A stretch of 34,875 bases of DNA from positions 1 through 34,875 of the forward strand of contig CANRCE010000008.1 of NCBI GenBank assembly GCA_947629035.1, written 5' to 3'. A program made the translations under genes and the position numbers. Under the pieces are notes generated by a model. It was not told the DNA's origin. It searched no databases and saw only the letters and a program-made list of their open reading frames with translations. Origin of the DNA: an uncultured Bacilli bacterium. Its GTDB lineage: Bacteria; Bacillota_I; Bacilli_A; RF39; UBA660. Shown one piece after another: positions 17,106-33,905 of this stretch; positions within the stretch are counted from its first letter, which is position 1, and each line of letters begins with the position of its first letter.

Positions 17106-17852
17106 TTAATTATCTTTTAAAATATTAGAATTACTACTAAAACCACCAAGATAATAATTAGGTATCTGTCCTTGAATAACTTTAGTAGCTATTGGTATTT
17201 TATTATTTACAGTTATCTCATTTGATACAAAAGGCAAATTAATTCTTGTCGTAACTTCAATATTAATATTTACATCAATTAAAGCATTATTTATTCCATA
17301 TTCTCTTACATCTGTATTTATTCCTGTTATAACATCCCCAATTAAATTTAACTTAACTGGTATCTTTGGTCCTAAATTTCCTAAAAAAGAAGATTGACTT
17401 ATAACTCCAACAGGTATTTCATAAATAATTCCTCTTCTTAATAAATTATCATCATAACCATCTAATGTATTATCAGGAAGCTCAATTAAATCAATGTTTC
17501 CCTCTTCAATAGCTTTTAAATTTAACTGAACAAGATTAGTAATAGAATTTAATATTTTAGTAACGTTTTTAGAATTAAAATCAATAAGAATTATTTCTCC
17601 AGCATTATTTTTGACAACTGTAAATAAATCTTCAACATCCATATCATTAGTAATTTGCTTGGTTACAGCTTTATTAATAATTAAAGTTGTAAGTTTTCTA
17701 GTTTCACTTTCTGCATATGATAAAAAAATAGGCATAGCTTTATCACTAAAATATTTTATAAGTTGATAAGATAAAAACAATCCTAAAATAATAATAAAAA
17801 TTAAAATTGTAAAAACATTACATTTTCTTTTCTTTTTTAATTTAAGTTTCAT
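17106..17852 (-). CDS. yunB: Sporulation protein YunB
   Basis: YunB is a membrane-anchored protein of the sigma-E sporulation regulon in Bacillus; loss impairs spore formation, but the mechanism is unknown. This 248-residue protein has the expected layout: a basic N-terminus (KLKLKKKRK), one helix (15-36), then an extracytoplasmic domain with family motifs (YAESETRKLTTLIINKAV; GIIYEIPVGVISQSSFLGNL; GPKIPVKLNLIGDVITGI; REYGINNALIDVNINIEV). Length matches the family (about 250). Together with cotJB/cotJC at 33 kb it implies that the organism carries sporulation genes. A terminator from the rhodanese gene separates it from upstream genes. Confidence 0.9.
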   Translation of the reverse strand: MKLKLKKKRKCNVFTILIFIIILGLFLSYQLIKYFSDKAMPIFLSYAESETRKLTTLIINKAVTKQITNDMDVEDLFTVVKNNAGEIILIDFNSKNVTKILNSITNLVQLNLKAIEEGNIDLIELPDNTLDGYDDNLLRRGIIYEIPVGVISQSSFLGNLGPKIPVKLNLIGDVITGINTDVREYGINNALIDVNINIEVTTRINLPFVSNEITVNNKIPIATKVIQGQIPNYYLGGFSSNSNILKDN

Positions 17853-17865
17853 ATTAATATATATG

Positions 17866-17896
17866 AAAAAAAGATACTTATTTTGTATCTTTTAAA
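17866..17896 (-). terminator. Terminator of the rhodanese gene
   Basis: The minus strand AAAAGATAC, a 7-nt loop, then GTATCTTTTTTT forms a 9-bp stem with a strong T run, overlapping the last base pairs of the rhodanese gene. Confidence 0.85.
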
Positions 17897-18179
17897 AAAA
17901 TTTACTTAAATATGCATCATACCCACCAATAACATTCAAAGTATCATATCCAAATAATTTTAACCTCTTAGCAATCTCTTCACTTTGTTTTCCCTCATCA
18001 CAATATAAATAATATCTATCAACTTTATTTAAATAATGAGAATAATTACCTAATAAATTATAATATGGAATATTTATAGCATTTTTAATATGACCTTGCA
18101 TAAAAGAATAGTTGTCCCGAATATCCACAATAATAGGATTATTTAGATGCATAAGATTTTCTATAGTAATACCATTCAT
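17892..18179 (-). CDS. Single-domain rhodanese
   Basis: Rhodaneses carry sulfane sulfur as a cysteine persulfide. This 95-residue protein is a single domain with the typical start (NPIIVDIRDNYSFMQGHIKN), the active loop CDEGKQS (the catalytic cysteine opens the loop at about residue 59) and the C-terminal VIGGYDAY. AGAGGTG precedes ATG. It stands alone with its own terminator, close to sufB. A role supplying sulfur for Fe-S clusters or tRNA thiolation is possible but not shown by the sequence. Confidence 0.9.
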   Translation of the reverse strand: MNGITIENLMHLNNPIIVDIRDNYSFMQGHIKNAINIPYYNLLGNYSHYLNKVDRYYLYCDEGKQSEEIAKRLKLFGYDTLNVIGGYDAYLSKFF

Positions 18180-18399: not shown

Positions 18400-20484
18400 T
18401 TATTCATCAGCAAAGAAATCATCGAAAAAGTCATCATCTTCATCATGATTAGTACTGTTATCACTATTATCGTTATTAATATCATTAATAGTTAAAACTT
18501 CATCATTTAAACTTGAAGTATTACTTGCATCTTGTTTTTCATTTTCCTCTGAAACTTGATTATTCGCTGCTTCTTTTTCTAATCTCTCTTCTTCCTCTAA
18601 TTCAGCAATTTTAGCATCGATTTTCTTAACTAATTCATCAACATTAAAACCACTTACTGAATTACTTGGACTAGGCATACCCATACCAGATAATCCCGGT
18701 GGTATCATACCAGGTATCATACCTGACATTGGATTAGGAGACATTCCACTAAAAGGATTAAGATTAATAGCATCAGCCATTTTTTCTTCCTTTTTCTTTT
18801 TAACAAATTCTCTAATATCAAAAAGAGCAATTGGTTTAGGATCTCTTACCTTATGAGTTGCCTTCTCATATGTTTTACCCCAATCTAATTTAAAATCAGG
18901 TGTATATTTAGTCTTATAAGGCATCATTCGAAGTCGTAAAATAATAATTTCAAACTGCCTTAATCGTTGTAAATCACTTACTGTAACAAGAGGTGTTGAA
19001 GCTGTCTTATCATCTTTTTTAGATTTTACTTCACCACACATTTTACTAATTTCCTCTAGAGCTTGAAGTTCATTAGAAATTAGATAAACCGTATTACAGT
19101 TTCCTTTAATTGTCTCAGCATTTTCTTTACCATAAACTTGTGTTAATTGAGCATAGTTCTGAATAATAAAGACAAATCTAACTTTTCTACTACGAGCTGC
19201 TGTTACCATTGTTGTTACATCTTTTAAAGGTGGCATATTAGCAAACTCATCCAAAATAAAATTAGTCTTAAATGGAAGCTTTCCTCCACATTCTTGAGCA
19301 ACATCAATTAAAGTTTCATAACATTGTTTTATAAAAATTGTGGCAAGAGGATGTAACGTTCTTTTTTCATCTTGAATAATTAAAAATACTGCTGTTTTCT
19401 TTCGACCAATATCTTTCATATCAAAATCACTATAACTTAACATCTCTGATAAATTATCACGTGATGAGAATATTTTTACTTTTTGTTTAAAAGTTGATAG
19501 AACTCCACCTTTAGTATCTTCAGGGGCATAAACAGTACCTGAAGCATTAACATAAGCAGGTCGTGATGGATCTTTCATATTAAAATATTCTTTAATATAA
19601 TTATTGTTTGGACCTCCAAATCTTTCTTCACCTAAACTTGACATCAAGTTCATACTATTTAAGTTAATTTGATCTTCAGTAGCATCTTCAAAAAGTCCTA
19701 AAGCTAGTCCAGTAAAATAATCTGCTCCTGACTTTTCCCAAAATGGATCGGCATTACTTGACTTTTCATCATATAAAATATTTAAAGCTAAATCATCTAA
19801 AAGTTCTATAGCCTTATCAGTATTTCCCTCTTTATATAAAAGATATGGCAAAGTCATCGGATTCCAAGCATTACCTTTTTGAGGATCACGGAAATTTAAA
19901 GTAATTACATTATAACCTCTTTCACGAAGCATTTCTGCTGATGATTCATATAACTCTCCTTTAGGATCAGTTACAATCATAGACTCCCCTGCTTTAGCAA
20001 GTATTTTTATCATTGGTTTAGCAACAATTTCTGTTTTACCAGAAGCTGTAGCTCCAAGAACTACATAATGTTGTTCTCCTTTATCTAGCCAAATATTTTT
20101 ACCATTACTAATTAATGGTACTCCTCCAACTGGAATAGTTTCATCTTTTATGTTAATTTTGACTAAATCCTTTTTCATTTCAGAATCCTTGCACCAACGT
20201 GAATAGCCTTTATCTTTTTTAGTAGTTGCAATTCCAAAGCCTTTTTCTCTATCAAAAAAGTATGAACTAACTGCTGTAAAAATAGCAATCAATGCTAAAA
20301 GGAAAAAGACAAGAGTCGCTCCAATATAACGACCACTAAAAGCTTCAAAAGGAAGTAAACCATAAAATTTACCTGTTGTTGCTAAACTTGAAGCATTTAA
20401 AACACCAACTGCACATATATACAATAAAAATATACAAAAACAGACAAAAATAGCAATATCTTTTGGTTCTGCTCTAAACTTCAT
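18400..20484 (-). CDS. VirD4/TraG-type coupling ATPase
   Basis: T4SS coupling proteins are hexameric ATPases that bring substrates (a relaxase-DNA complex or proteins) to the secretion channel. Two N-terminal helices (residues 10-30 and 52-74) anchor it. The ATPase domain has Walker A GATASGKT (144-151), the TDPKGELYE motif (172-180), Walker B LDEFANMPPL (411-420) and a conserved RSRKVRFVFIIQNYAQL. The C-terminus has a Met/Pro/Gly-rich stretch, a charged coil and a very acidic tail (DEDDDFFDDFFADE), a likely substrate-recognition region. At 694 residues it is a normal TraG size. It is the last gene of the locus and starts about 57 nt after the VirB8-like gene. Confidence 0.95.
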   Translation of the reverse strand: MKFRAEPKDIAIFVCFCIFLLYICAVGVLNASSLATTGKFYGLLPFEAFSGRYIGATLVFFLLALIAIFTAVSSYFFDREKGFGIATTKKDKGYSRWCKDSEMKKDLVKINIKDETIPVGGVPLISNGKNIWLDKGEQHYVVLGATASGKTEIVAKPMIKILAKAGESMIVTDPKGELYESSAEMLRERGYNVITLNFRDPQKGNAWNPMTLPYLLYKEGNTDKAIELLDDLALNILYDEKSSNADPFWEKSGADYFTGLALGLFEDATEDQINLNSMNLMSSLGEERFGGPNNNYIKEYFNMKDPSRPAYVNASGTVYAPEDTKGGVLSTFKQKVKIFSSRDNLSEMLSYSDFDMKDIGRKKTAVFLIIQDEKRTLHPLATIFIKQCYETLIDVAQECGGKLPFKTNFILDEFANMPPLKDVTTMVTAARSRKVRFVFIIQNYAQLTQVYGKENAETIKGNCNTVYLISNELQALEEISKMCGEVKSKKDDKTASTPLVTVSDLQRLRQFEIIILRLRMMPYKTKYTPDFKLDWGKTYEKATHKVRDPKPIALFDIREFVKKKKEEKMADAINLNPFSGMSPNPMSGMIPGMIPPGLSGMGMPSPSNSVSGFNVDELVKKIDAKIAELEEEERLEKEAANNQVSEENEKQDASNTSSLNDEVLTINDINNDNSDNSTNHDEDDDFFDDFFADE

Positions 20485-20540
20485 AACGTCCCTCCATTCA
20501 ACTAAAAATATTATAACACAACTAAATTAAACTAGCAATA

Positions 20541-21416
20541 TTAATCTTTATCGAAAGAAATTTCTACACTATAGTTTAATCCATGTATAACATTAACAGT
20601 ATATAATGTATTATTACTGTCAACTAAATTATAAGTATTCGAAACTTTATTATATTTCTCTAACATACCACTAGTAATCAAATCATTTTTAGAAGTATAA
20701 TCAATAAATTCTTCTAAAGTATTAAAATATTTATTTTTAGTCCTTGTTCCAATTTTATCATATATATAGCTAGGATTACTATATATATTAGATATAATAT
20801 CATTATAATAAATTGCAGCTATTATACTCTCATCATAATTAGTTATATTAAAATTATTATTATCATTATGTGAAATAGTTTTGAATTTAAAATCATTGCT
20901 TACAATTAGTTTTTCATATTTGCCTTTATCTATTGGATAAATGGCATAACTACTCTCATCAATATTATAATATAATACATAATTTTTAGTATCCTTTATA
21001 TAGTTTACTTGATCCATAACATCATTTTTTAAATAACCTTGAACTAAAAATATATAGTTATTTTTATTACTAATTACATAAATTTCACTAGCTTGAAAAG
21101 AAGTATTTTGATAATCAGTAAAATATGATAATACATTATCAATAGAAATATTATTTTCAAAAGTATAATCTTTATCTAATATATCATAAACATTATCTCT
21201 AAAGCCATTACTTATCATTTTACATAGATTATTAATATTTTCTGAAATAGAAAAGAAAAGAGATTCATCGCTTAATAAAACTAATTCATGATACTCAGTT
21301 GTTTTATTTTTTTCGTCTAATTCCAATTGATTTCTATTAATAAAATATACAACTATACCTATTATACTAAAAACTATCAATAATATTATAATAGTTATTT
21401 TATTTTCTTTTATCAT
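20541..21416 (-). CDS. Bitopic membrane protein, VirB8/TcpC-like position and shape
   Basis: This is a 291-residue protein with a short cytoplasmic N-terminus, one membrane helix (residues 7-27) and a large extracytoplasmic domain. I see no strong signature. The single anchor, size, and alpha-then-beta pattern, ending in paired strands (YTVNVIHGLNYSVEISF), fit VirB8/TcpC-like proteins with NTF2 folds, which scaffold the channel. Position in the locus supports this. AAGGAGG lies 6 nt before ATG 21416 and only 10 nt after the upstream stop, so I reject the longer frame beginning at 21446. Codons are very AT-rich, more so than the ATPases, suggesting fast evolution. The functional label is inference. 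Confidence 0.72.
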   Translation of the reverse strand: MIKENKITIIILLIVFSIIGIVVYFINRNQLELDEKNKTTEYHELVLLSDESLFFSISENINNLCKMISNGFRDNVYDILDKDYTFENNISIDNVLSYFTDYQNTSFQASEIYVISNKNNYIFLVQGYLKNDVMDQVNYIKDTKNYVLYYNIDESSYAIYPIDKGKYEKLIVSNDFKFKTISHNDNNNFNITNYDESIIAAIYYNDIISNIYSNPSYIYDKIGTRTKNKYFNTLEEFIDYTSKNDLITSGMLEKYNKVSNTYNLVDSNNTLYTVNVIHGLNYSVEISFDKD

Positions 21417-21426
21417 ATAAACCTCC

Positions 21427-22710
21427 TTAAGAAGGATAAATTCCATCGATTAGTAGTTTCCATTCAGCTTCTCTTCTTCTAGCTAATGCACTAAGATATG
21501 TACCATTTGCCATGGAATATTTAGAAAAACAATCGGTATGCATCTTTTCACTTAAGCCATATTCACTATAATGTTGGAAAAAGCAATTATTATTACCAAC
21601 ATTATATCTAAATGAAGTAAGAGCATCAATTTGATAATCAAATAAATCAATACCATGGCTTCTTGCTTCATTTATGACACTTGTTTTATACGAATTTATA
21701 ATTTCTATAGCAATAGCATCAGCAGTAGAAACAGGAACACTAGATCCTACGGTTAACTTATCAGGATCAATTCCTCTTGTAGTAAACATATCCTTATGAG
21801 CTGATATTAAAATACCTATACCAACGGTTAAATTACCATAGCCATCATCATAAACAAGATAATTACCATCCTTAATTGTTCCAGTACCTTCAAATTTTTT
21901 AATCATTGATAAAAGTTTGTTATCACTAGTTTTAGGTCTTGGATTATCAGGATCAACATAAGTTAGAGGATTTATAGCCATACTGTTATTATAACCACCA
22001 ATATCAATTTGAAAATGTAAGTGAGCGCCAGTTGAGCTACCACTATTACCTATTTTACCAATAACTTGTCCTTGTTTTACAGTATCACCTGTTTTAACTT
22101 TAACACTATTTGAAGCCATATGACCATATATTGTATAAACATTGTTATTATGTAAAATTACGACATGGTTACCAAATCCTCCACCACAACTATTTCCATA
22201 ACTTCCATTGTCTTCACAACCGTTATAAGCATAATAAACTACGCCATCAAAAGATGCAATAACATTATAATAACCAATTCTTCCCCCAGCTGATATATCA
22301 ATACCTTTATGAGTACCTGCTTGTCCATTAATTACTCTATTACCTGTATAAGAACTAATTGATAACTCTGGTGGTGTATCACTAGCATATAAAACTCCAT
22401 TAATTGATTTTGTTTCCATACTACCAACAGGCCACCAATAACTAAAATTATTAACAGAATCATAGGAAAGTAAATTATAATTATCATCATCTTCTCCTAT
22501 ATCAATGACATCAATTGCCATTAAAGTAGCAACTATTAATAAGAAAAGAAGAAGAAATACTCCTAATCCTCCAAAGAAAAATATTTTAAATTTTAATGAT
22601 GCCAGTTTAGAAATTTTTTCTACTACTGCATTATTAGAATTATTATCTGAACCATTACCCTCTTCTTTTGAGGTGTTTTTTTTAACAAAATTTACTAATT
22701 TGTCAAACAT
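21427..22710 (-). CDS. T4SS-associated wall hydrolase: M23 peptidase plus GH24 lysozyme
   Basis: Secretion systems need such enzymes to open the wall. Residues 1-40 are cytoplasmic and a strong helix spans 41-66. An M23 (LytM) endopeptidase follows at 115-255 with zinc ligands His134 and Asp138 (THKGID) and His232 (GAHLHFQ), plus His197 (YGHM). A phage T4-type lysozyme domain (GH24) spans 265-425: Glu274 (KKFEG), Asp289 and Thr295 (YDDGYGNLTVGIG) correspond to the Glu-Asp-Thr triad. It could therefore cut both glycan and peptide. Four cysteines in the exported part come as two close pairs. Gram-positive T4SS hydrolases usually combine a goose-type lysozyme with NlpC/P60; this pairing differs. 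Confidence 0.92.
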   Translation of the reverse strand: MFDKLVNFVKKNTSKEEGNGSDNNSNNAVVEKISKLASLKFKIFFFGGLGVFLLLFLLIVATLMAIDVIDIGEDDDNYNLLSYDSVNNFSYWWPVGSMETKSINGVLYASDTPPELSISSYTGNRVINGQAGTHKGIDISAGGRIGYYNVIASFDGVVYYAYNGCEDNGSYGNSCGGGFGNHVVILHNNNVYTIYGHMASNSVKVKTGDTVKQGQVIGKIGNSGSSTGAHLHFQIDIGGYNNSMAINPLTYVDPDNPRPKTSDNKLLSMIKKFEGTGTIKDGNYLVYDDGYGNLTVGIGILISAHKDMFTTRGIDPDKLTVGSSVPVSTADAIAIEIINSYKTSVINEARSHGIDLFDYQIDALTSFRYNVGNNNCFFQHYSEYGLSEKMHTDCFSKYSMANGTYLSALARRREAEWKLLIDGIYPS

Positions 22711-22728
22711 TTAATTCACCACCAAATC

Positions 22729-24513
22729 TTATAAACCTCCACCACTACCAAATGACTCTAACTCTTCTTCAGTTACATTTACATTTATTTGCATTCTTCT
22801 ACCGCCACACACAAATAATGCTTCTCCTTGACTGTATCTTTTAATATTCTCTTTTTCATTATCATTTAAATCAATTAAGCTACTTAAATCTTCAACTGCT
22901 TGTTTCTTAAGTCCCATAACTAAATAATAAGCAGCATTGTCAAATATAGCTTTACCATGCATTATAATATCTGATCCTACAAAATCAGTAGGCTGTTGAG
23001 TAATAATAATAGTCCCTGTATTGTATTTTCTAGCTCTTCTTTGAACTTGAGCTAAAAATTCTGCTCCAAAAACATTTTTTTCTCCTAAAAGAACATGTGC
23101 CTCATCAACAGATAAAACTGTGTTAACATTTGGATTTAAGCATAAACTCCAAGCATATTTTAAAACATTAAAAAGTAAAGCATTACGAATATTAACATCA
23201 GAATTCATAAGTTCTTTAATATTAAATACAATAAAATCAGTATTACTATTAATTGAAGTATGACCATTAAAATAATATTTTAATTCTCTAACAAATGGTC
23301 TTACTTTTAATTCTAATCTTTCCATAACATCTCTTTCATGAGTTTTTTCTGTCATAGAAGTAAGTCTTCCACTAATTGTAGCATAGACATCTTGAAAAAT
23401 AGGAAAAGATTCAGATTTAAAATTAGAAAAATCAGTATTAAAGTCAATACCAAATCTAGCATAAGTATCTTGAACAACTTCACTAAATAAAGTTAAAACA
23501 TCTTCCTCAATATCTGGTGCATAATATTTCATAAAAGCTTTCAAAGTTTGAATTGTCTTTGTTAAGACCGTATAACCTAAACCTGCTTTTATTTCTTCTT
23601 CATCAGCATCCATAATAATTTCAAGTGGATTTACCATACCAAATTGTCCACCTTTACCTAAATCGACAACCTCTCCTCCTAAAGCTCTAGTCATATCTGA
23701 TATTTCACCTTCAGGATCAACAGCAACAATCTGATAACCATTTCTAATATGACTTCTTAAAATAAGTTTAGCTGCTGTTGATTTACCACTTCCAGATGTA
23801 CCCAAAATAATCATATTAGCATTATTACGTCCTGGTTCTTTACCAATTTGATAAAAGAATTGATTAAATAAAACAACTCCTCCAGAAAAATCTACACCAA
23901 GTAAAGTAGATAATCCATCATCTTTAATACTATCAAAAATGAAAGGATACATTGCAGCCATTGTTGGAGATGGCATTGGCGTACCAATTCGCATTTCAAT
24001 TGGTTGCTTATCAAAAATAGGAAGCATTGATTTTAATACTCTTTCCTGTTCAAAACGTAAAGGAATAGCTTTAAGACCCATTGCATCTAAATAATTTTTT
24101 AAATTCATTTTTTTAAGTTCTAATTCTTCTTTAGTATTAGCCGTTACCATAAGATGCATTTGAAAGTCAAAAGTTTTAGCTTGTGAAGCTGTAAATTGCT
24201 GAATATAATATTCTAGTGAATCTACATCCTGTCTTATTCTTTCTTGAACAGTTCTATCATGTTCATCTTGATATTTTGATCTTAAATCTGCTATTTCCTT
24301 ATTTAACATTTTTGCTAATACAGAAAAAGGAACAGGAATATGCTTAATAACCATCTTAATACCTGATAAATTAGTTAAATTAGCAAGATAACCAGGTCCA
24401 ATTAATCTAGGATATGAAATAACAGTTAAAATCGTAGCATACTTATCACTAATTACAAATTCAGCTGGATTGAATTGAATTCCTTTAGGAGCTATTTCAC
24501 TTTTAAAACTCAT
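22729..24513 (-). CDS. VirB4-family secretion ATPase
   Basis: VirB4 ATPases power assembly and transport in T4SSs. This 594-residue protein has a non-catalytic N-terminal part (1-190; TFDFQMHLMVTANTKEEL) and a RecA-like ATPase domain: Walker A GTSGSGKS (238-245), AVDPEGEISDM (264-274), Walker B VLSVDEAHVLL (466-476) and QRRARKYNTGTIIITQQPTD. It is shorter than most Gram-positive VirB4 proteins (about 800 residues). The immediately upstream gene, overlapping by 4 nt (ATGA), encodes a protein resembling the missing N-terminal region, so the enzyme seems to be built from two chains. It is followed after 18 nt by the wall hydrolase gene. Confidence 0.95.
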   Translation of the reverse strand: MSFKSEIAPKGIQFNPAEFVISDKYATILTVISYPRLIGPGYLANLTNLSGIKMVIKHIPVPFSVLAKMLNKEIADLRSKYQDEHDRTVQERIRQDVDSLEYYIQQFTASQAKTFDFQMHLMVTANTKEELELKKMNLKNYLDAMGLKAIPLRFEQERVLKSMLPIFDKQPIEMRIGTPMPSPTMAAMYPFIFDSIKDDGLSTLLGVDFSGGVVLFNQFFYQIGKEPGRNNANMIILGTSGSGKSTAAKLILRSHIRNGYQIVAVDPEGEISDMTRALGGEVVDLGKGGQFGMVNPLEIIMDADEEEIKAGLGYTVLTKTIQTLKAFMKYYAPDIEEDVLTLFSEVVQDTYARFGIDFNTDFSNFKSESFPIFQDVYATISGRLTSMTEKTHERDVMERLELKVRPFVRELKYYFNGHTSINSNTDFIVFNIKELMNSDVNIRNALLFNVLKYAWSLCLNPNVNTVLSVDEAHVLLGEKNVFGAEFLAQVQRRARKYNTGTIIITQQPTDFVGSDIIMHGKAIFDNAAYYLVMGLKKQAVEDLSSLIDLNDNEKENIKRYSQGEALFVCGGRRMQINVNVTEEELESFGSGGGL

Positions 24514-25076
24514 GCTGCCATCACCGTCCCAAAGTTAGTAGTCATACCACTATTTAAGAAATTATCCAAAATAACTCTTAAATCTTGATTAGAAGTCTGA
24601 ACAGCCTCTAAACCAGCATTAGCAAGTCCCATAATTAAAGTACGAAGATTTTTTTGAATAATATCCTGATTTCGTTCTTTAAATAAAATATAATATTCTG
24701 TATCTGTAACATTATTATCCATAAACATATTAGCTTTATCAATATCTTGCAAAATTATTTTTCTAATAACGGGAGATGGTGTTTGATTATATAAAAGTTG
24801 CATACGAGCTAAATATCCAGAAATATCAACTGGTCTATCTGCTGAAATTAACCAAAATTCAAAATCAATAGAATTATAAAAATTTTTAAGAGCAATAATA
24901 ACTGATTCTTGTGTTGCAACATCTAAAATAAAGATATTACGAGGTCTTATCTTAACACCAGTTACCCTCATATTATTATTTAAAATAATTGAACCATTAG
25001 CAATAGTTTTAATGGGTAACCAATCTTCCGTATATTTAGAATTATTTTTTTGCCCTGTCATCTTTGAATTGTTCAT
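24510..25076 (-). CDS. VirB4 N-terminal-domain-like protein
   Basis: This 188-residue soluble protein resembles the extreme N-terminal domain of conjugative VirB4/TraC-type ATPases (EDWLPIKTIANGSIILNN, then FWLISADRPVDISGYLARM, then EYYILFKERNQD). It has no ATPase motifs. Its TGA overlaps the ATG of the VirB4 gene, implying coupled translation in near-equal amounts and probably a complex. The start is uncertain: candidates are ATG 25100, 25076 and 25061, all inside the 3' end of the prgI-like gene. I chose 25076; the site at 25061 would also suit homologues. The assignment rests on pattern and position. Confidence 0.75.
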   Translation of the reverse strand: MNNSKMTGQKNNSKYTEDWLPIKTIANGSIILNNNMRVTGVKIRPRNIFILDVATQESVIIALKNFYNSIDFEFWLISADRPVDISGYLARMQLLYNQTPSPVIRKIILQDIDKANMFMDNNVTDTEYYILFKERNQDIIQKNLRTLIMGLANAGLEAVQTSNQDLRVILDNFLNSGMTTNFGTVMAA

Positions 25077-25368
25077 ACAAACACCAACCTTTCCATACAT
25101 ATCTTCTTCTTTCTGTAAAAAATCTAATAATACTTTGAATTGCAGTCAATACATTATGATAATTAGGTATAGGTATTACCAAAAGACCAGTAATAAGAGC
25201 AGGTAGACAACCAATTATGATAACGGTCGTGTTTGTACTAGATACAAACATTAATATCAAAAATGATACAAATACACCACTACCAAATAAAATTAAGTCA
25301 AATGGTCTAAAAATATTAAGTATTAACGTACCTCTTTTAGCATTAGCTGGAACTAAATATCCATTCAC
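25042..25368 (-). CDS. PrgI-family protein (VirB3-like)
   Basis: PrgI-type proteins are small membrane components of Gram-positive T4SSs, equivalent to VirB3, always next to VirB4. This 108-residue protein has the typical short lead (YLVPANAKRGTLILNIFRPF), two adjacent helices (about 24-44 and 47-68) and a basic cytoplasmic end (FTERRRYVWKGWCLYEQF). It starts at GTG 25368, with AAGGAG upstream at a somewhat long spacing. Its 3' end overlaps the next gene, so translation is coupled. Family and position agree. Confidence 0.88.
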   Translation of the reverse strand: MNGYLVPANAKRGTLILNIFRPFDLILFGSGVFVSFLILMFVSSTNTTVIIIGCLPALITGLLVIPIPNYHNVLTAIQSIIRFFTERRRYVWKGWCLYEQFKDDRAKK

Positions 25369-25403
25369 TATGTATCACACTCCTTTTTATTTTATATTTA
25401 TTA

Positions 25404-27356
25404 TTACTTACCACCACCATATTTATCATTAGCTTGATGAGCTCTATAACCATTTGTTGAAGTATACTGTGTCTGCCCAGCTTGAGCAAATGTCCTAGCA
25501 TCTCCAACTGAAGTCGTTCCAGGGGTTGTTCCATCGCCAATTGTTCCAACATTAGCAAATCCTGGCAAGTTATGATTATCATTAGCAATTCTTTGCATAT
25601 TATCAACTGCTGTTCTAGCTTGTCCAGCTAAAGCAGCATCTACTCCAGAAGTAAGACTAACGCTTACACGAGCACCAGCAGCTGTTACATAATCATATTC
25701 CTTATCTCCTTTTAATATAGCATTTCTAGCGTTAGTTTTGGCAATATTTAGTTTAGTCTGTAAATTATGTATATTAGCAGCTGAATCACCCCTAGCTACA
25801 GCTTGATCAAGCTCTTTTTGTAAATTTTTTACACCAGCAGTGTTATTTACAGCTTTATCAAAAATATCATATTGAGCATCAAAATCTTTATAAGCCTGTA
25901 CATTTCTAGCATCAACATCAGCAGCAGTTTCCATACCAAGATGTCTTTGTAAGCCAGCTATTCTACCACCCATAATACTTCCTCCAGCTGCTCTTACATC
26001 ATTTCTTCTTTTATTCATAGCAGCTTGATTTTTTGTAACACTTCCTAAATTTTTCATTAAGCCACCTTTTTGAGCACCAGTAAATGCTCCTCTTCGAAGT
26101 CCTCCAACAACATCGCCAGAAAAAGCTCCTACTACAGCTCCAAGTCCTGCTCCTAAACCAAAGCCAAGAGCCCTTTTAGTTGTTTCATCTGGTTTAATAC
26201 CATAGCCGATTGAAGCAGCATTTTTAGGAAATAATTCTTTAATTAAATCCATGACTTTTTTAGCAAAAATTAATAAAGCCATCACTAATATTATTTTAGC
26301 ATATACTTGCTGTCCACTACTTAACCATGAGAAAGCTGTAGAAATCATATCTTCATCATTTAATATCAAAGTTGATACATAAACAACAAAATAAATAATT
26401 GCTGTTCTAATAAAAAAGTCTAAATATGTAGTTAAAACCATTTTCCACCATTTATCAAAGATATTGTTTTTATTCGGACCAAGATATCCTAATATTGGTA
26501 TTGGAGCAATCATCTGTAAAAAGGCAAGCTGAAATAATCTTACTCCAACATTAATTGTATACATTACAATTATCCACAAAACCACTCCAGCAACGGCAAT
26601 CATAAAAATACCATCAAAATTAATTGTATAAACACTCTTATCTTCCCTATTAGAGCTTGTTTTATCTGTACCACTTACTTTCCTATTTAAGCAAGCAAAA
26701 GCATTATTTAAATTAACATTTCCATTTGTAAATTGATATTCCATCAGATTTATGTTTGAATTATCAAATGGAGACACAGCATAATATGGACAGATATGTC
26801 TCTCACCTTCATCATTTTCATATAAATTTATATCTTCATCTAAATCTAATTGTTTCTCTAAATCATCATAATTAACTTCTTTATAAAAGGCACTAAAAAT
26901 ATTATAAGATAAGCTAGTTCCTGCATTTGCAACAATATCACTATTACTTGCAGTTGTATCAGAAAGAAATATCTTTCCTAAAACATTAGAATCAACAATT
27001 GCATTTTGTATTTTATAAGCATAATTAAATAAAGTAGGTGTCATTCCAAAAAGAACAATAACAATAATAACTTTTTTTACAATATTTATGGCTCCTTTAT
27101 CTTTATCTGTTAAACTATCAGGATTAAGAAGTATTTGAATCAACGAAAAACTAATTCTAAATATCATAAAAATAGATAATATTAACCCTATACGTTGAAA
27201 AATTGACATAACAATGTCATTATCTATAATTCTAGCTGTTCCGATAGCCTCAAAACACTCGAAGCAAAAACATATTGCTTTAAATAAAGCTTCGCCAATC
27301 ATCAATAATAATGTTCTAAAGGCATCTTGAATAGCTTCACCTATCTTATCGAACAA
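25404..27356 (-). CDS. VirB6/TrbL-like polytopic membrane protein
   Basis: VirB6-type proteins form the inner-membrane channel platform. About six helices are visible (residues 17-40, 52-80, 92-115, 245-272, 275-295 and 312-370 in part), with an extracytoplasmic loop of about 120 residues between helices 3 and 4 containing two cysteines (HICPYY; FACLNRK). The last 230 residues are hydrophilic, rich in Ala, Gly and Arg, with coiled-coil character (VKNLQKELDQAVARGDS). Codons there are noticeably richer in G and C than elsewhere. The long frame begins at a GTG inside the ribosome site; AGGAGG is 8 nt before TTG 27356, which I take as the start. The upstream stop TAG forms part of that site. Confidence 0.87.
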   Translation of the reverse strand: MFDKIGEAIQDAFRTLLLMIGEALFKAICFCFECFEAIGTARIIDNDIVMSIFQRIGLILSIFMIFRISFSLIQILLNPDSLTDKDKGAINIVKKVIIVIVLFGMTPTLFNYAYKIQNAIVDSNVLGKIFLSDTTASNSDIVANAGTSLSYNIFSAFYKEVNYDDLEKQLDLDEDINLYENDEGERHICPYYAVSPFDNSNINLMEYQFTNGNVNLNNAFACLNRKVSGTDKTSSNREDKSVYTINFDGIFMIAVAGVVLWIIVMYTINVGVRLFQLAFLQMIAPIPILGYLGPNKNNIFDKWWKMVLTTYLDFFIRTAIIYFVVYVSTLILNDEDMISTAFSWLSSGQQVYAKIILVMALLIFAKKVMDLIKELFPKNAASIGYGIKPDETTKRALGFGLGAGLGAVVGAFSGDVVGGLRRGAFTGAQKGGLMKNLGSVTKNQAAMNKRRNDVRAAGGSIMGGRIAGLQRHLGMETAADVDARNVQAYKDFDAQYDIFDKAVNNTAGVKNLQKELDQAVARGDSAANIHNLQTKLNIAKTNARNAILKGDKEYDYVTAAGARVSVSLTSGVDAALAGQARTAVDNMQRIANDNHNLPGFANVGTIGDGTTPGTTSVGDARTFAQAGQTQYTSTNGYRAHQANDKYGGGK

Positions 27357-27368
27357 GGAAAACACCTC

Positions 27369-28541
27369 CTAACCAATATTGCAAGAATTTGGTCCTATAG
27401 ACGACCATACCATATTAGCCAAATTTAATAGTAAATTAACAAGTGTTGGTACAAAGAAAATTGCAACACCAACAATCAATCTAACAATAAATCTTTTTTG
27501 AGCTTTCTTCATTTTATCATCATCCGATGCTAAAACTGCACTACCAAAATCAACTATACCAAATCCAATAACTAAAATTGGAACAATAATTCTGATATAT
27601 TTTAAAAATGAATTTATTATATCTATTATTTCATCACCAAATAATTCACACTCATCCTTTGGCGATTCAATTGGATCTATTGGAGTTATATTTTCTTTAA
27701 CTTTTTCATCAACTTTTACATATGGAGTAATGGCACACATAAAACTTTCTTCAGAATTAATTGTAAATTGAGTGTTAAGAATCATCCCATTATTGCATTC
27801 TTTTCTGTATATTTCAACAGGGCAAGTACTAGTTAAAACTGCATAATCAAGTATATCACTATTTGCCCATATTTTTTGTCCATCAGCATTAGGATTGATA
27901 AGATTAGGATTATTGTCTTTAATGCTTTTAACTAAACCATTATCTTTTTCATAAAGATTAAAAGTTTTTGTTGTAAAATCAAAATAAATTGTTAAATCTT
28001 TATCATTACTTCCATTAATAGTATAATAACATTCTGCTTCCCATTCTTTGTTTGAATTTAAAGCTAATTTATTGTAATCTTCATTATGAGTTCCATCGGC
28101 AATATCATATTGTATGGTACTTGTCTTTGTCTTGTTGAATTCATTTTTTAAATTACCACACCAGCCATCATTATTATCAAAGCAAACTTCATTTCGAAAA
28201 TGTGTATCATAATAAGCATTAGTAGGACAAGCGCCAAAAGCTAATAACGAATCTTTTATAGCTTGATTAGCAAAAGCATTACCATTATTACTTACAATTT
28301 TCTCTTTTCTAAATTTATCATAACTTGAATTATATATTGCATATAATTGATTATCTTTTATTGCAATTAAAACACTATAAGTTTTATCATCATATTCCAT
28401 ATCGTAACCACAAAGTGGCAAATCATAACCATCTTCAATATAACTATTAAAATTATTAATATCAAAAGCTTTAGCTCTAACATCATTCATATAAATAAAA
28501 GAGCTTAAAAGTATGATTATTACCAATACTATTTTTTTCAT
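27369..28541 (-). CDS. Large secreted protein with C-terminal pilin-like (VirB2-type) module
   Basis: This is a 390-residue protein with no known name. A signal peptide (residues 1-23, LVIIILLSSFIYMNDVRA) leads to an extracytoplasmic domain of about 265 residues with eight cysteines. The last 95 residues form a two-helix hairpin clearly related to the small pilin-like protein encoded next to it: both have IxPxLVI, G..D.G.AV.AS, a charged turn, and VAIFFV, and both carry one cysteine before helix 1 and one after helix 2 (Cys298 and Cys387 here). It looks like a pilin module fused to a cysteine-rich ectodomain, possibly a tip or minor pilin, which is inference. Start: GAGGAG lies 7 nt before ATG 28541. 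Confidence 0.82.
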   Translation of the reverse strand: MKKIVLVIIILLSSFIYMNDVRAKAFDINNFNSYIEDGYDLPLCGYDMEYDDKTYSVLIAIKDNQLYAIYNSSYDKFRKEKIVSNNGNAFANQAIKDSLLAFGACPTNAYYDTHFRNEVCFDNNDGWCGNLKNEFNKTKTSTIQYDIADGTHNEDYNKLALNSNKEWEAECYYTINGSNDKDLTIYFDFTTKTFNLYEKDNGLVKSIKDNNPNLINPNADGQKIWANSDILDYAVLTSTCPVEIYRKECNNGMILNTQFTINSEESFMCAITPYVKVDEKVKENITPIDPIESPKDECELFGDEIIDIINSFLKYIRIIVPILVIGFGIVDFGSAVLASDDDKMKKAQKRFIVRLIVGVAIFFVPTLVNLLLNLANMVWSSIGPNSCNIG

Positions 28542-28644
28542 ATATAAACTCCTCATTTCTAAAACAAGAAATAAAATTTAAACCATAACCACATTATAAC
28601 ATAAAAAATTATAATAATAAATAGAAAAAATCAACTTTATATTA

Positions 28645-28668
28645 AAAAAAATACCAAAAGGTATTTAT
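28645..28668 (-). terminator. Terminator inside the locus, directly after the pilin gene
   Basis: The minus strand AAATACC-TTTT-GGTATTTTTTTT is a 7-bp stem with a tight loop and eight Ts, overlapping the pilin stop codon. The next gene starts about 100 nt further on, with no obvious separate promoter, so partial read-through is likely. Confidence 0.85.
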
Positions 28669-28979
28669 TTTAAATAATTTAAACAACTTGCCCAATTTAC
28701 CGTATCAATGTTTTCATCTCCAGCAGTATCTGTTGCAAATAATCCAAATAGTAATTGAACAATTGCAATTACAAAGAATATTGCTACAGCATACATTGCT
28801 CTTTTAGTTAACATTTTTGTTGCTGCTTTTATTTCTTTTTCTTCACTTGCTATAACTGCTTTACCTAAATCTAACATACCAAGAATTACTAAAATTACTG
28901 GTATTCCAAATTTTACAATATCAAGTATTGATCCAATAAATTTCATAAGTGAAACTAATTCACTAGGACATCCTTCCAT
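28665..28979 (-). CDS. Small pilin-like protein (VirB2/TrbC type)
   Basis: This is a 104-residue protein with two hydrophobic helices (about 14-36 and 61-81) joined by a charged cytoplasmic turn (ASEEKEIKAATK). Such hairpins are typical of VirB2/TrbC pilins, which form the extracellular filament or the channel lining. There is no signal peptide; the first helix would act as one. One cysteine lies on each outer end (Cys4, Cys99) and could close the hairpin by a disulfide. It is the first gene of the locus, with TAAGGAGG before ATG, a near-consensus promoter and its own terminator, all expected for a highly expressed subunit. Family assignment is by topology and its larger paralogue. Confidence 0.8.
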   Translation of the reverse strand: MEGCPSELVSLMKFIGSILDIVKFGIPVILVILGMLDLGKAVIASEEKEIKAATKMLTKRAMYAVAIFFVIAIVQLLFGLFATDTAGDENIDTVNWASCLNYLK

Positions 28980-32851: not shown

Positions 32852-33343
32852 ATGAATAATTACAATGATTATTATAATTACTTTAATAATCAATTAAATG
32901 ATATGAATTATATGCCAAATAATTATGAAATGATGCAAGATATGAATTATGGTAATGCATTTCAAAACACTTTTATGATGCCAACTGCACAAAATCAAAT
33001 CATAGATTCATATCAAGGTTTTTTAAGAGGAAATATGTTTGGGGATTTATATGATCCTTATAAAAATTATCAGCCTATGGAATTAAAAGCTCAAACAGAA
33101 AGGGAAAGTCTTTTACAACAAGTACAACAGTTAAAATTTGCAATGATTGATCTTGATTTATATTTAGATACACATCCAAATGATAGAGAGGCTTTAAATT
33201 TATTTAATAGCTATAGAACTCAAGAAAAACAATTATGTGAACAATTTGAAAATAAATTTGGACCTCTTACATTAGATAGTAATGCCCTAAATGCTAACAA
33301 TTGGGTATGGATTAATGGTCCTTGGCCTTGGGAGGTGAAATAA
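32852..33343 (+). CDS. cotJB: Spore coat protein CotJB with fused CotJA-like segment
   Basis: CotJ proteins form part of the inner spore coat. This 163-residue protein is about twice the length of CotJB. Residues 1-50 are low-complexity, rich in Asn, Tyr and Met. Residues 52-75 (GFLRGNMFGDLYDPYKNY) match the end of CotJA. Residues 84-163 are CotJB (LKFAMIDLDLYLDTHPNDRE; NKFGPLTLDS; WVWINGPWPWE). It thus appears to be a CotJA-CotJB fusion; no separate cotJA is present. A strong AGGAGGGG precedes ATG. cotJC follows after one base. Confidence 0.88.
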   Translation: MNNYNDYYNYFNNQLNDMNYMPNNYEMMQDMNYGNAFQNTFMMPTAQNQIIDSYQGFLRGNMFGDLYDPYKNYQPMELKAQTERESLLQQVQQLKFAMIDLDLYLDTHPNDREALNLFNSYRTQEKQLCEQFENKFGPLTLDSNALNANNWVWINGPWPWEVK

Positions 33344-33344
33344 A

Positions 33345-33905
33345 ATGTGGAAATATGTTAAAACATTAGAATATCCAGTTAATATTAAGAAAAAAGATTT
33401 AAGAATGGCAAAATATATGATGTCACAATACGGTGGAGCTAATAGTGAGTTAGCAGCAGCTCTTAGATATTTAAATCAAAGATACACAATGCCAGATGAT
33501 AAAGGTAAAGCTTTGTTAACTGATATTGGTACTGAAGAACTAGCACATGTTGAAATTATTTCAACAATTCTTTATCAGCTTATGAAAGATGCAACAGTTG
33601 ATGAGTTAAAACAAGCAGGTCTTGGAGGTCATTATTCTGAACATGGAAAGGATATATACCCTACCGATCCAAATGGAACACCATTTACGGTATCTTATTT
33701 TTCTTCAGTTGGTGATCCTATAGCTAATTTATCCGAAGATATGGCAGCAGAACAAAAGGCTCGATCAATATATGAAAATTTAATTAATTTAACAGATGAT
33801 CCTGATGTTCTTGGACCATTATTATTCTTAAGACAAAGAGAAATAGTTCACTTTACCAGATTTAATGAATTATATGATGAATATAAAAAAAAGGGATATA
33901 AATAG
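33345..33905 (+). CDS. cotJC: CotJC, manganese-catalase-like spore coat protein
   Basis: CotJC belongs to the manganese catalase family, a four-helix bundle with a two-manganese site, and is packaged in the spore coat with CotJA and CotJB. Likely metal ligands are visible: Glu35 (GANSELAAAL), Glu65 and His68 (GTEELAHVE), the EDMAAEQKARSIYE helix and the final ExxH (RQREIVHF). It has 186 residues, the expected length. It is translated right after cotJB and ends before a strong terminator. Catalase activity is inferred from the ligands. Confidence 0.93.
   Translation: MWKYVKTLEYPVNIKKKDLRMAKYMMSQYGGANSELAAALRYLNQRYTMPDDKGKALLTDIGTEELAHVEIISTILYQLMKDATVDELKQAGLGGHYSEHGKDIYPTDPNGTPFTVSYFSSVGDPIANLSEDMAAEQKARSIYENLINLTDDPDVLGPLLFLRQREIVHFTRFNELYDEYKKKGYK

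Follow-up and report, generated by a model that had tools for sequence, protein, structure and literature searches.

A resident type IV secretion locus without a relaxase in a family of RF39 Bacilli

Nearly all known type IV secretion systems (T4SSs) of Gram-positive bacteria move DNA, and whether there are dedicated secretion devices among them is a long-standing question (PMC12857230). The T4SS of the 89K island of Streptococcus suis is reported to secrete a protease (PMC12857230). The Patescibacteria have a T4SS without a relaxase that shares homology with the conjugation machinery of monoderms (PMC12102498), and this system is essential for the epibiotic growth of Southlakia epibionticum (PMC12857230). 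Here, a locus resembling the latter in composition and setting is described from an uncultured Bacilli bacterium of the RF39 family UBA660. It occupies positions 18400-28979 of a 34,875-nucleotide stretch (the window), which is the whole of contig CANRCE010000008.1 in a metagenome-assembled genome of 1.25 Mb, 90% complete (GCA_947629035.1). RF39 bacteria are frequent in the guts of humans and animals; they are uncultured and auxotrophic and lack fatty acid synthesis (PMC6784871). The literature searched contained no report of a T4SS in this group.

The locus is a complete set of monoderm (MPF-FATA) type IV secretion machinery. The original prediction, made from the sequence of the window alone, had described nine contiguous minus-strand genes, and both the open reading frames (ORFs) and the components were verified, the VirB8-like assignment resting on a structure model. 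On balance, we take the locus to be a resident, vertically inherited and non-conjugative T4SS that comes from a conjugation apparatus of the mycoplasma/Bacilli type and most likely serves contact-dependent transfer, probably of protein, to other cells. That it is fixed, is inherited vertically and has lost conjugation is well supported by its distribution, by its phylogeny and by the search for relaxases.

Presence was counted in 47 genomes of the family, nearly all of different genera, and in a second, class-wide sample of 395 genomes, 54 of them from the family. An orthologue of VirB4C, the C-terminal ATPase half of VirB4, is found in 39 of the 47 genomes (65-76% identity) and in 46 of the 54. 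Scores in the class-wide sample exceed 1095 bits within the family and reach at most 412 outside it. At least 548 relatives came out of a scan of named genomes; of the best 80, most bear the title uncultured Bacilli or Tenericutes and some that of Candidatus Onthousia, a name that appears together with the order RF39 in PMC8035907. At least three genomes without a VirB4C match were considered as true absences and rejected as such, since their contigs are broken and other T4SS genes are present: G001 has VirB3, VirB6 and pilins where a contig ends, and G014 and G034 have VirD4 with the family tail. The patchy presence among relatives that the original prediction had named as refuting evidence was not seen; the locus is near-universal in the family.

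The comparison of VirB4C and RpoB trees took in 28 genomes. Each of the nine RpoB splits that have a bootstrap of at least 95 is recovered by the VirB4C tree, there is no strongly supported conflict, and the distances in the two trees are correlated (Mantel r=0.72; none of 9999 permutations gave so high a value). On average, VirB4C is 71% and RpoB 73% identical. The pairwise ratio of nonsynonymous to synonymous substitution rates (dN/dS) in VirB4C, taken from 12 close pairs, is 0.004-0.12; the protein is under strong purifying selection. Family-wide presence and a tree that tracks RpoB at every well-supported node support both the proposed residence of the machine in the chromosome and its co-evolution with the host. 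Fixation and RpoB-like conservation point to a benefit for the cell.

The gene order is also kept: pilins, virB6, virB3, virB4N, virB4C, a gene of VirB1 type, the VirB8 position and virD4, often followed by a rhodanese gene. The flanks are ordinary genes, as predicted (SufB, Spore_YunB and AsnS on one side; adenosine deaminase, CotJB and CotJC/Mn-catalase on the other), but they differ in conservation. The yunB-sufB-amidase-ssb flank is common to the window and its closest relatives, whereas the add/cotJ flank was found in the window only and is not conserved among the homologous loci, where the usual neighbour is a Tad-like pilus block. The sporulation-type genes yunB, cotJB and cotJC (window 17106-17852 and 32852-33905) are retained in this small genome.

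No relaxase lies in or beside the locus, in agreement with the original prediction. Five models (PF03432, PF01076, PF13814, NF041499 and PF02486) were all negative in the source genome, a search that did not take in MOBQ, MOBF, MOBH and MOBL. In 113 homologous loci (2.13 Mb, all six frames searched), profiles made from the relaxases of conjugative elements found none bracketing the genes, and there is no nickase candidate in or near the loci; a conjugative element kept out of profile training was detected at 2e-120. A rebuilt MOBV profile matched neither the loci nor the controls, so the MOBV negative rests on the Pfam search. True conjugative elements of the same family and of other Bacilli families encode a MobP2/MobP3-type relaxase between VirB4 and VirD4 (these matches score under the whole-protein cut-offs of NCBIfam, with E values as low as 4e-37). 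Of the genes examined in the window, none was recognised as an integrase, a check that did not extend systematically to neighbouring loci or to att sites. Of the marks of a conjugative element, then, neither a linked relaxase nor patchiness with a host-incongruent tree was found. A plasmid or phage origin was rejected too: there are no close relatives there, the best relative on a plasmid shares 29% identity, and no viral contig encodes the locus. Four records in phage collections (MT835596, MT837079, MT837104 and OR848116) contain genes for VirB4-like proteins; these records may be pieces of conjugative elements.

The components are listed in Table 1. A VirB4 with Walker A and Walker B motifs, VirD4, VirB6, VirB3, VirB1 and pilins are all present, and by its composition this set would build a working monoderm translocation channel. 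Pilin and hydrolase are identified from Pfam matches; for VirB6 and VirB3 the assignment comes from position and from cross-matches of hidden Markov models (HMMs) to conjugative elements.

Table 1. Genes of the T4SS locus and the adjoining rhodanese gene (window positions; pLDDT, predicted local distance difference test; TM, transmembrane; aa, amino acids)
Feature	Position	Strand	Evidence
VirB2-like small pilin, 104 aa	28665..28979	-	hydrophobic; homologous to ~105-130 aa pilins of family loci
Pilin fusion: ~290-aa N-terminal part and C-terminal T4SS_pilin domain	27369..28556	-	PF18895
VirB6-like polytopic membrane protein, 653 aa	25404..27365	-	TrbL_4, weak, E=3e-4
VirB3/PrgI-like small membrane protein, 108 aa	25042..25368	-	position, family HMM
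VirB4 N-terminal half, 196 aa, own ORF	24510..25100	-	NF045975 positions 91-277, E=9e-14
VirB4 C-terminal ATPase half, 594 aa, own ORF	22729..24513	-	NF045975 positions 295-893, 352 bits (under the whole-protein cut-off of 590 because the protein is split)
VirB1-like wall hydrolase, M23 peptidase and phage lysozyme	21427..22710	-	PF01551 3.1e-23, PF00959 6.9e-10
VirB8-like protein, one TM helix and two NTF2-like domains	20541..21446	-	AlphaFold2 model, pLDDT 85.1
VirD4 coupling ATPase, C-terminal extension ending DDDFFDDFFADE	18400..20484	-	PF02534 (T4SS-DNA_transf) 3.2e-50
Rhodanese-domain protein, downstream of VirD4	17892..18179	-	PF00581 1.8e-15

The small pilin matches no library family above cut-off and is assigned by position and family alignments. 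In the fusion, the pilin domain covers residues 306-376 (28.3 bits, cut-off 26.6), and the long N-terminal part is probably extracellular. The domain is C-terminal in 68 of 73 long fusions from family loci, and at least two pilin-domain proteins are encoded in 75 of the 87 loci with enough upstream sequence. The family HMM of VirB6 matches proteins at the VirB6 position of true conjugative elements (29-107 bits), and that of VirB3 does the same at the VirB3 position (14-66 bits). Alone, the VirB3-like protein has no significant library match, only a weak one to the N-terminal part of NF045975, and it is assigned from position and family alignments. VirB4C matches the VirB4 structure 4ag5 (PDB) at 2.7e-63, and its Walker A and DEAH motifs are kept in all 113 loci. 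The model of the VirB8-like protein resembles, by Foldseek, NTF2 folds and the VirB8-like OrfG of ICESt3 (7pkw, prob 0.63), none of these at E<=0.001. VirD4 exceeds the curated PF02534 cut-off and that of NF045973, the NCBIfam CD1115 family (290.6 bits against 250). The rhodanese gene occurs in 59 of the 113 loci, across many genera, and usually adjoins virD4 or lies one gene off. In many relatives a membrane protein of ~400 aa with a weak Wzz match is encoded between the two (L126 16696-17997); it is not in the window.

The homology to VirB4 given in the original prediction stood, with one refinement: the two VirB4-like ORFs are halves of one VirB4 in a split kept family-wide. VirB4N and VirB4C are separate ORFs in 112 of 113 loci, with lengths of 180-243 aa (111 of 112) and 591-608 aa (113 of 113), respectively. 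In the window, virB4C overlaps virB4N by ATGA; a four-base overlap is found in 77 of the 112 loci, and more than one relative frame is used. A programmed frameshift or an assembly error was rejected as the cause, given the number of loci that are split, a stop-start spacing and frame that vary (-41 to +2) and a Shine-Dalgarno-like GGTG kept in the virB4N tail, close to the virB4C start, in 110 of the 113. Translational coupling therefore fits these features and frameshifting does not. Nor is the split a hallmark unique to the resident system, as integrative and conjugative elements (ICEs) of other Bacilli families have it too, and for this reason it probably predates domestication. VirB4 in two ORFs was seen in ICE or plasmid systems of other Bacilli families at L208, L209, L210, L211, L212 and L065, the halves being in reversed order in L065.

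The motors and the surface parts of the machine evolve differently. In close pairs, VirB4C and VirD4 are highly conserved, whereas VirB6, the pilin fusion, the hydrolase and the VirB8-position protein are hypervariable. Between loci L077 and L079, VirB4C is 99%, VirD4 95% and SufB 96% identical, against 37% for VirB6 and 25% for the pilin fusion, a protein whose identity between close relatives ranges over 25-65%. Most of an island of ~4 kb carrying pilin fusion, VirB6 and VirB3 (L077 5093-9129) cannot be aligned as DNA between these two loci, the rest of which is 80-90% identical; cassette exchange or very fast divergence could explain it. The hydrolase position holds, depending on the genus, SpoIID, M23, CHAP, NlpC/P60, lysozyme, glucosaminidase or VanY domains, and the VirB8 position is taken by unrelated membrane proteins that are not homologous throughout the family. 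Such variability fits parts that face changing partner cells or pilus-using phages, and the data favour neither.

VirD4 has a C-terminal tail of its own in this family. Its parts are a linker that varies, a short helix that is conserved (VDELVKKIDAKIAELE) and, at the very end, the motif DDxFFDDFFxDE. The core FFDDFF is exact in 81 of 87 family VirD4s, most others having variants with aromatic residues or Leu, and is found in none of nine conjugative VirD4s. The sole FFDDFF-coding site found in the source genome is the end of virD4 (window 18400-18460). Across the family such sites are not clearly commoner than those of the pattern reversed as a control; of the sites read, most are the virD4 end and the others look like chance. 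A conserved motif that ends a poorly conserved linker suggests that the tail may dock a cargo or an adaptor.

Most loci that reach far enough upstream have the Tad-like block directly before the pilins. It encodes a DUF5411 protein, a CpaB-like protein (weak RcpC match), a CpaF-like T2SSE ATPase, membrane proteins of ~297 and ~260 aa, which is the size of TadB and TadC, a protein of ~150 aa and a CpaE-like protein. The label of a Tad-like pilus is well founded for the ATPase and the gene order and provisional for the remaining proteins; for the 297-aa protein, the modelled structure resembles the cytoplasmic domains of T2SSF proteins below significance. In the source genome a complete block lies on another contig (L161 3820-12390) and is followed by an acyltransferase gene instead of the T4SS pilins, which is probably a lineage-specific rearrangement.

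Taken together, the parts would make the following device. The split VirB4, VirB3 and VirB6 would form the membrane motor and channel, and the VirB8-like protein and VirB1-like hydrolase would carry the machine through the wall. VirB2-like pilins and the long pilin fusions could build a short surface structure. VirD4 may pick cargo by its acidic-aromatic tail, which would replace docking of a relaxosome, and the Tad-like pilus may give contact with a partner cell. The machine would then deliver protein cargo to neighbouring cells, or exchange material with them. As the DNA-preparing enzyme is absent, it probably serves the cell itself. Contact-dependent delivery is favoured over other functions because there is no relaxase, the VirD4 tail is not seen in conjugative elements, the neighbour is Tad-like and the surface parts vary. 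The original prediction of a resident machine for protein export, DNA release or DNA uptake holds as to residence; the choice among the three, like secretion activity, cargo type and partner cell, is one that we infer.

Several points weigh against this function or against strict vertical descent. Tested on the VirB4C data, the complete RpoB topology fails the approximately unbiased (AU) test (p=0.0009). As no well-supported node disagrees, the rejection is placed in weak nodes, where some transfer or tree error is possible. By its score, VirD4 remains a coupling protein for DNA transfer, and the Foldseek support for both the VirB8 and the TadB fold is under significance. No effector, cargo or substrate was identified, with no proteome-wide effector screen made. 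The source genome is metagenome-assembled and 90% complete. Finally, many relatives encode MOBV or MOBP relaxases on separate contigs, which could use the machine in trans.

This last point leads to the rival that survives best, though we regard it as fairly improbable: a resident mobilisation platform, in which a T4SS without its own relaxase moves plasmids or integrative and mobilisable elements that bring MOBV or MOBP relaxases. Among 58 genomes of the family, 33 encode MOBV relaxases and 15 encode PF03432 relaxases, on other contigs or tens of kilobases from the locus, and VirD4 is kept intact. However, 16 T4SS-bearing genomes, the source genome included, lack matches to all five relaxase models, a motor as conserved as RpoB is unexpected in a service to mobile elements, and the VirD4 tail is not that of conjugative systems.

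Slightly less probable again is chromosomal DNA release or cell-to-cell chromosome exchange, with an outcome like mycoplasma chromosomal transfer and a nickase that is unrecognised or dispensed with. The best-fitting VirB4 model is that of the mycoplasma ICEs, which mediate such transfer (PMC12857230), yet that process needs a mobile ICE, and this locus is fixed. By analogy with the tails of single-stranded DNA (ssDNA)-binding proteins, the acidic-aromatic VirD4 tail could in principle mimic ssDNA; the lack of a nickase candidate in or near all 113 loci speaks against release.

A DNA uptake machine like Helicobacter ComB is very unlikely, even though ComEC is encoded in the source genome and in 52 of the 58 family genomes. 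ComEC and a PilB/ComGA-type pilus ATPase occur in nearly all relatives with or without the T4SS and are enough for transformation, so uptake is served otherwise. ComB is not known to include a VirD4, whereas one is present and conserved here. Weakest of all, a decaying ICE remnant or newly acquired mobile element would account for the homology to ICE machinery, the missing relaxase and the altered add-side flank of the source lineage, but is already contradicted by nine intact genes under strong purifying selection, by family-wide fixation with conserved order and an RpoB-like tree, and by the distance from plasmid and viral sequences.

Within contact-dependent transfer by a resident machine, it is tempting to speculate on a lifestyle. 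In parallel with the Patescibacteria, abundant gut Bacilli whose genomes are reduced might have adapted a conjugation machine as a fixed device that works by contact (T4SS and Tad-like pilus, with the FFDDFF tail of VirD4 choosing cargo) and might inject effectors into neighbouring bacteria or feed on them. We hold this picture of bacterial predators or epibionts only tentatively, as rather less likely than the transfer function itself.

In comparison with described systems, the VirB4 is closest, in the libraries used, to that of mycoplasma/Bacilli ICEs (Mbov_0397-type). VirB4, VirB3, VirB6 and VirD4 are homologous in the two, and some ICEs of other Bacilli families share the split VirB4. The ICEs are patchy and have MobP2/MobP3 between VirB4 and VirD4, whereas the resident locus is fixed and has none. 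The S. suis 89K system is likewise a minimal Gram-positive T4SS and is regarded as a protein exporter, as the present locus may be, but it sits on a pathogenicity island in one species rather than in a family-wide vertical locus. Tad (Flp) pilus loci resemble the neighbouring block in the CpaF-like T2SSE ATPase, the weak match to RcpC/CpaB and a pair of membrane proteins the size of TadB/TadC; they differ in that the membrane proteins and pilins of the block are too divergent for Pfam and are assigned by order and a sub-significant T2SSF fold match.

Nearest in kind, by composition and setting, is the T4SS of the Patescibacteria. Both have an MPF-FATA VirB4, VirD4, VirB6, VirB3 and VirB1, several VirB2-like pilins (PF18895) and usually no relaxase, and both are fixed in a small-genome, auxotrophic lineage with pili and ComEC; the array of VirB2-like pilins without a relaxase, typical of the Patescibacteria, is found in the family loci. 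The Bacilli belong to another phylum, and their locus differs in the split VirB4, the adjoining Tad-like block, the FFDDFF tail and the long pilin fusions. An epibiotic lifestyle is known in the Patescibacteria, while for these Bacilli it is only a candidate. New here are the Tad-like adjacency in most of the family, the contrast of conserved motors with hypervariable parts and the family-specific VirD4 tail. The locus is thus a family-wide, vertically inherited T4SS outside the Patescibacteria, probably in RF39-type hosts. Its VirD4 tail, its hypervariable VirB6 and pilin parts and its Patescibacteria-like pattern offer direct tests, and the combination of a T4SS, pili and genome reduction is one that the two groups share.

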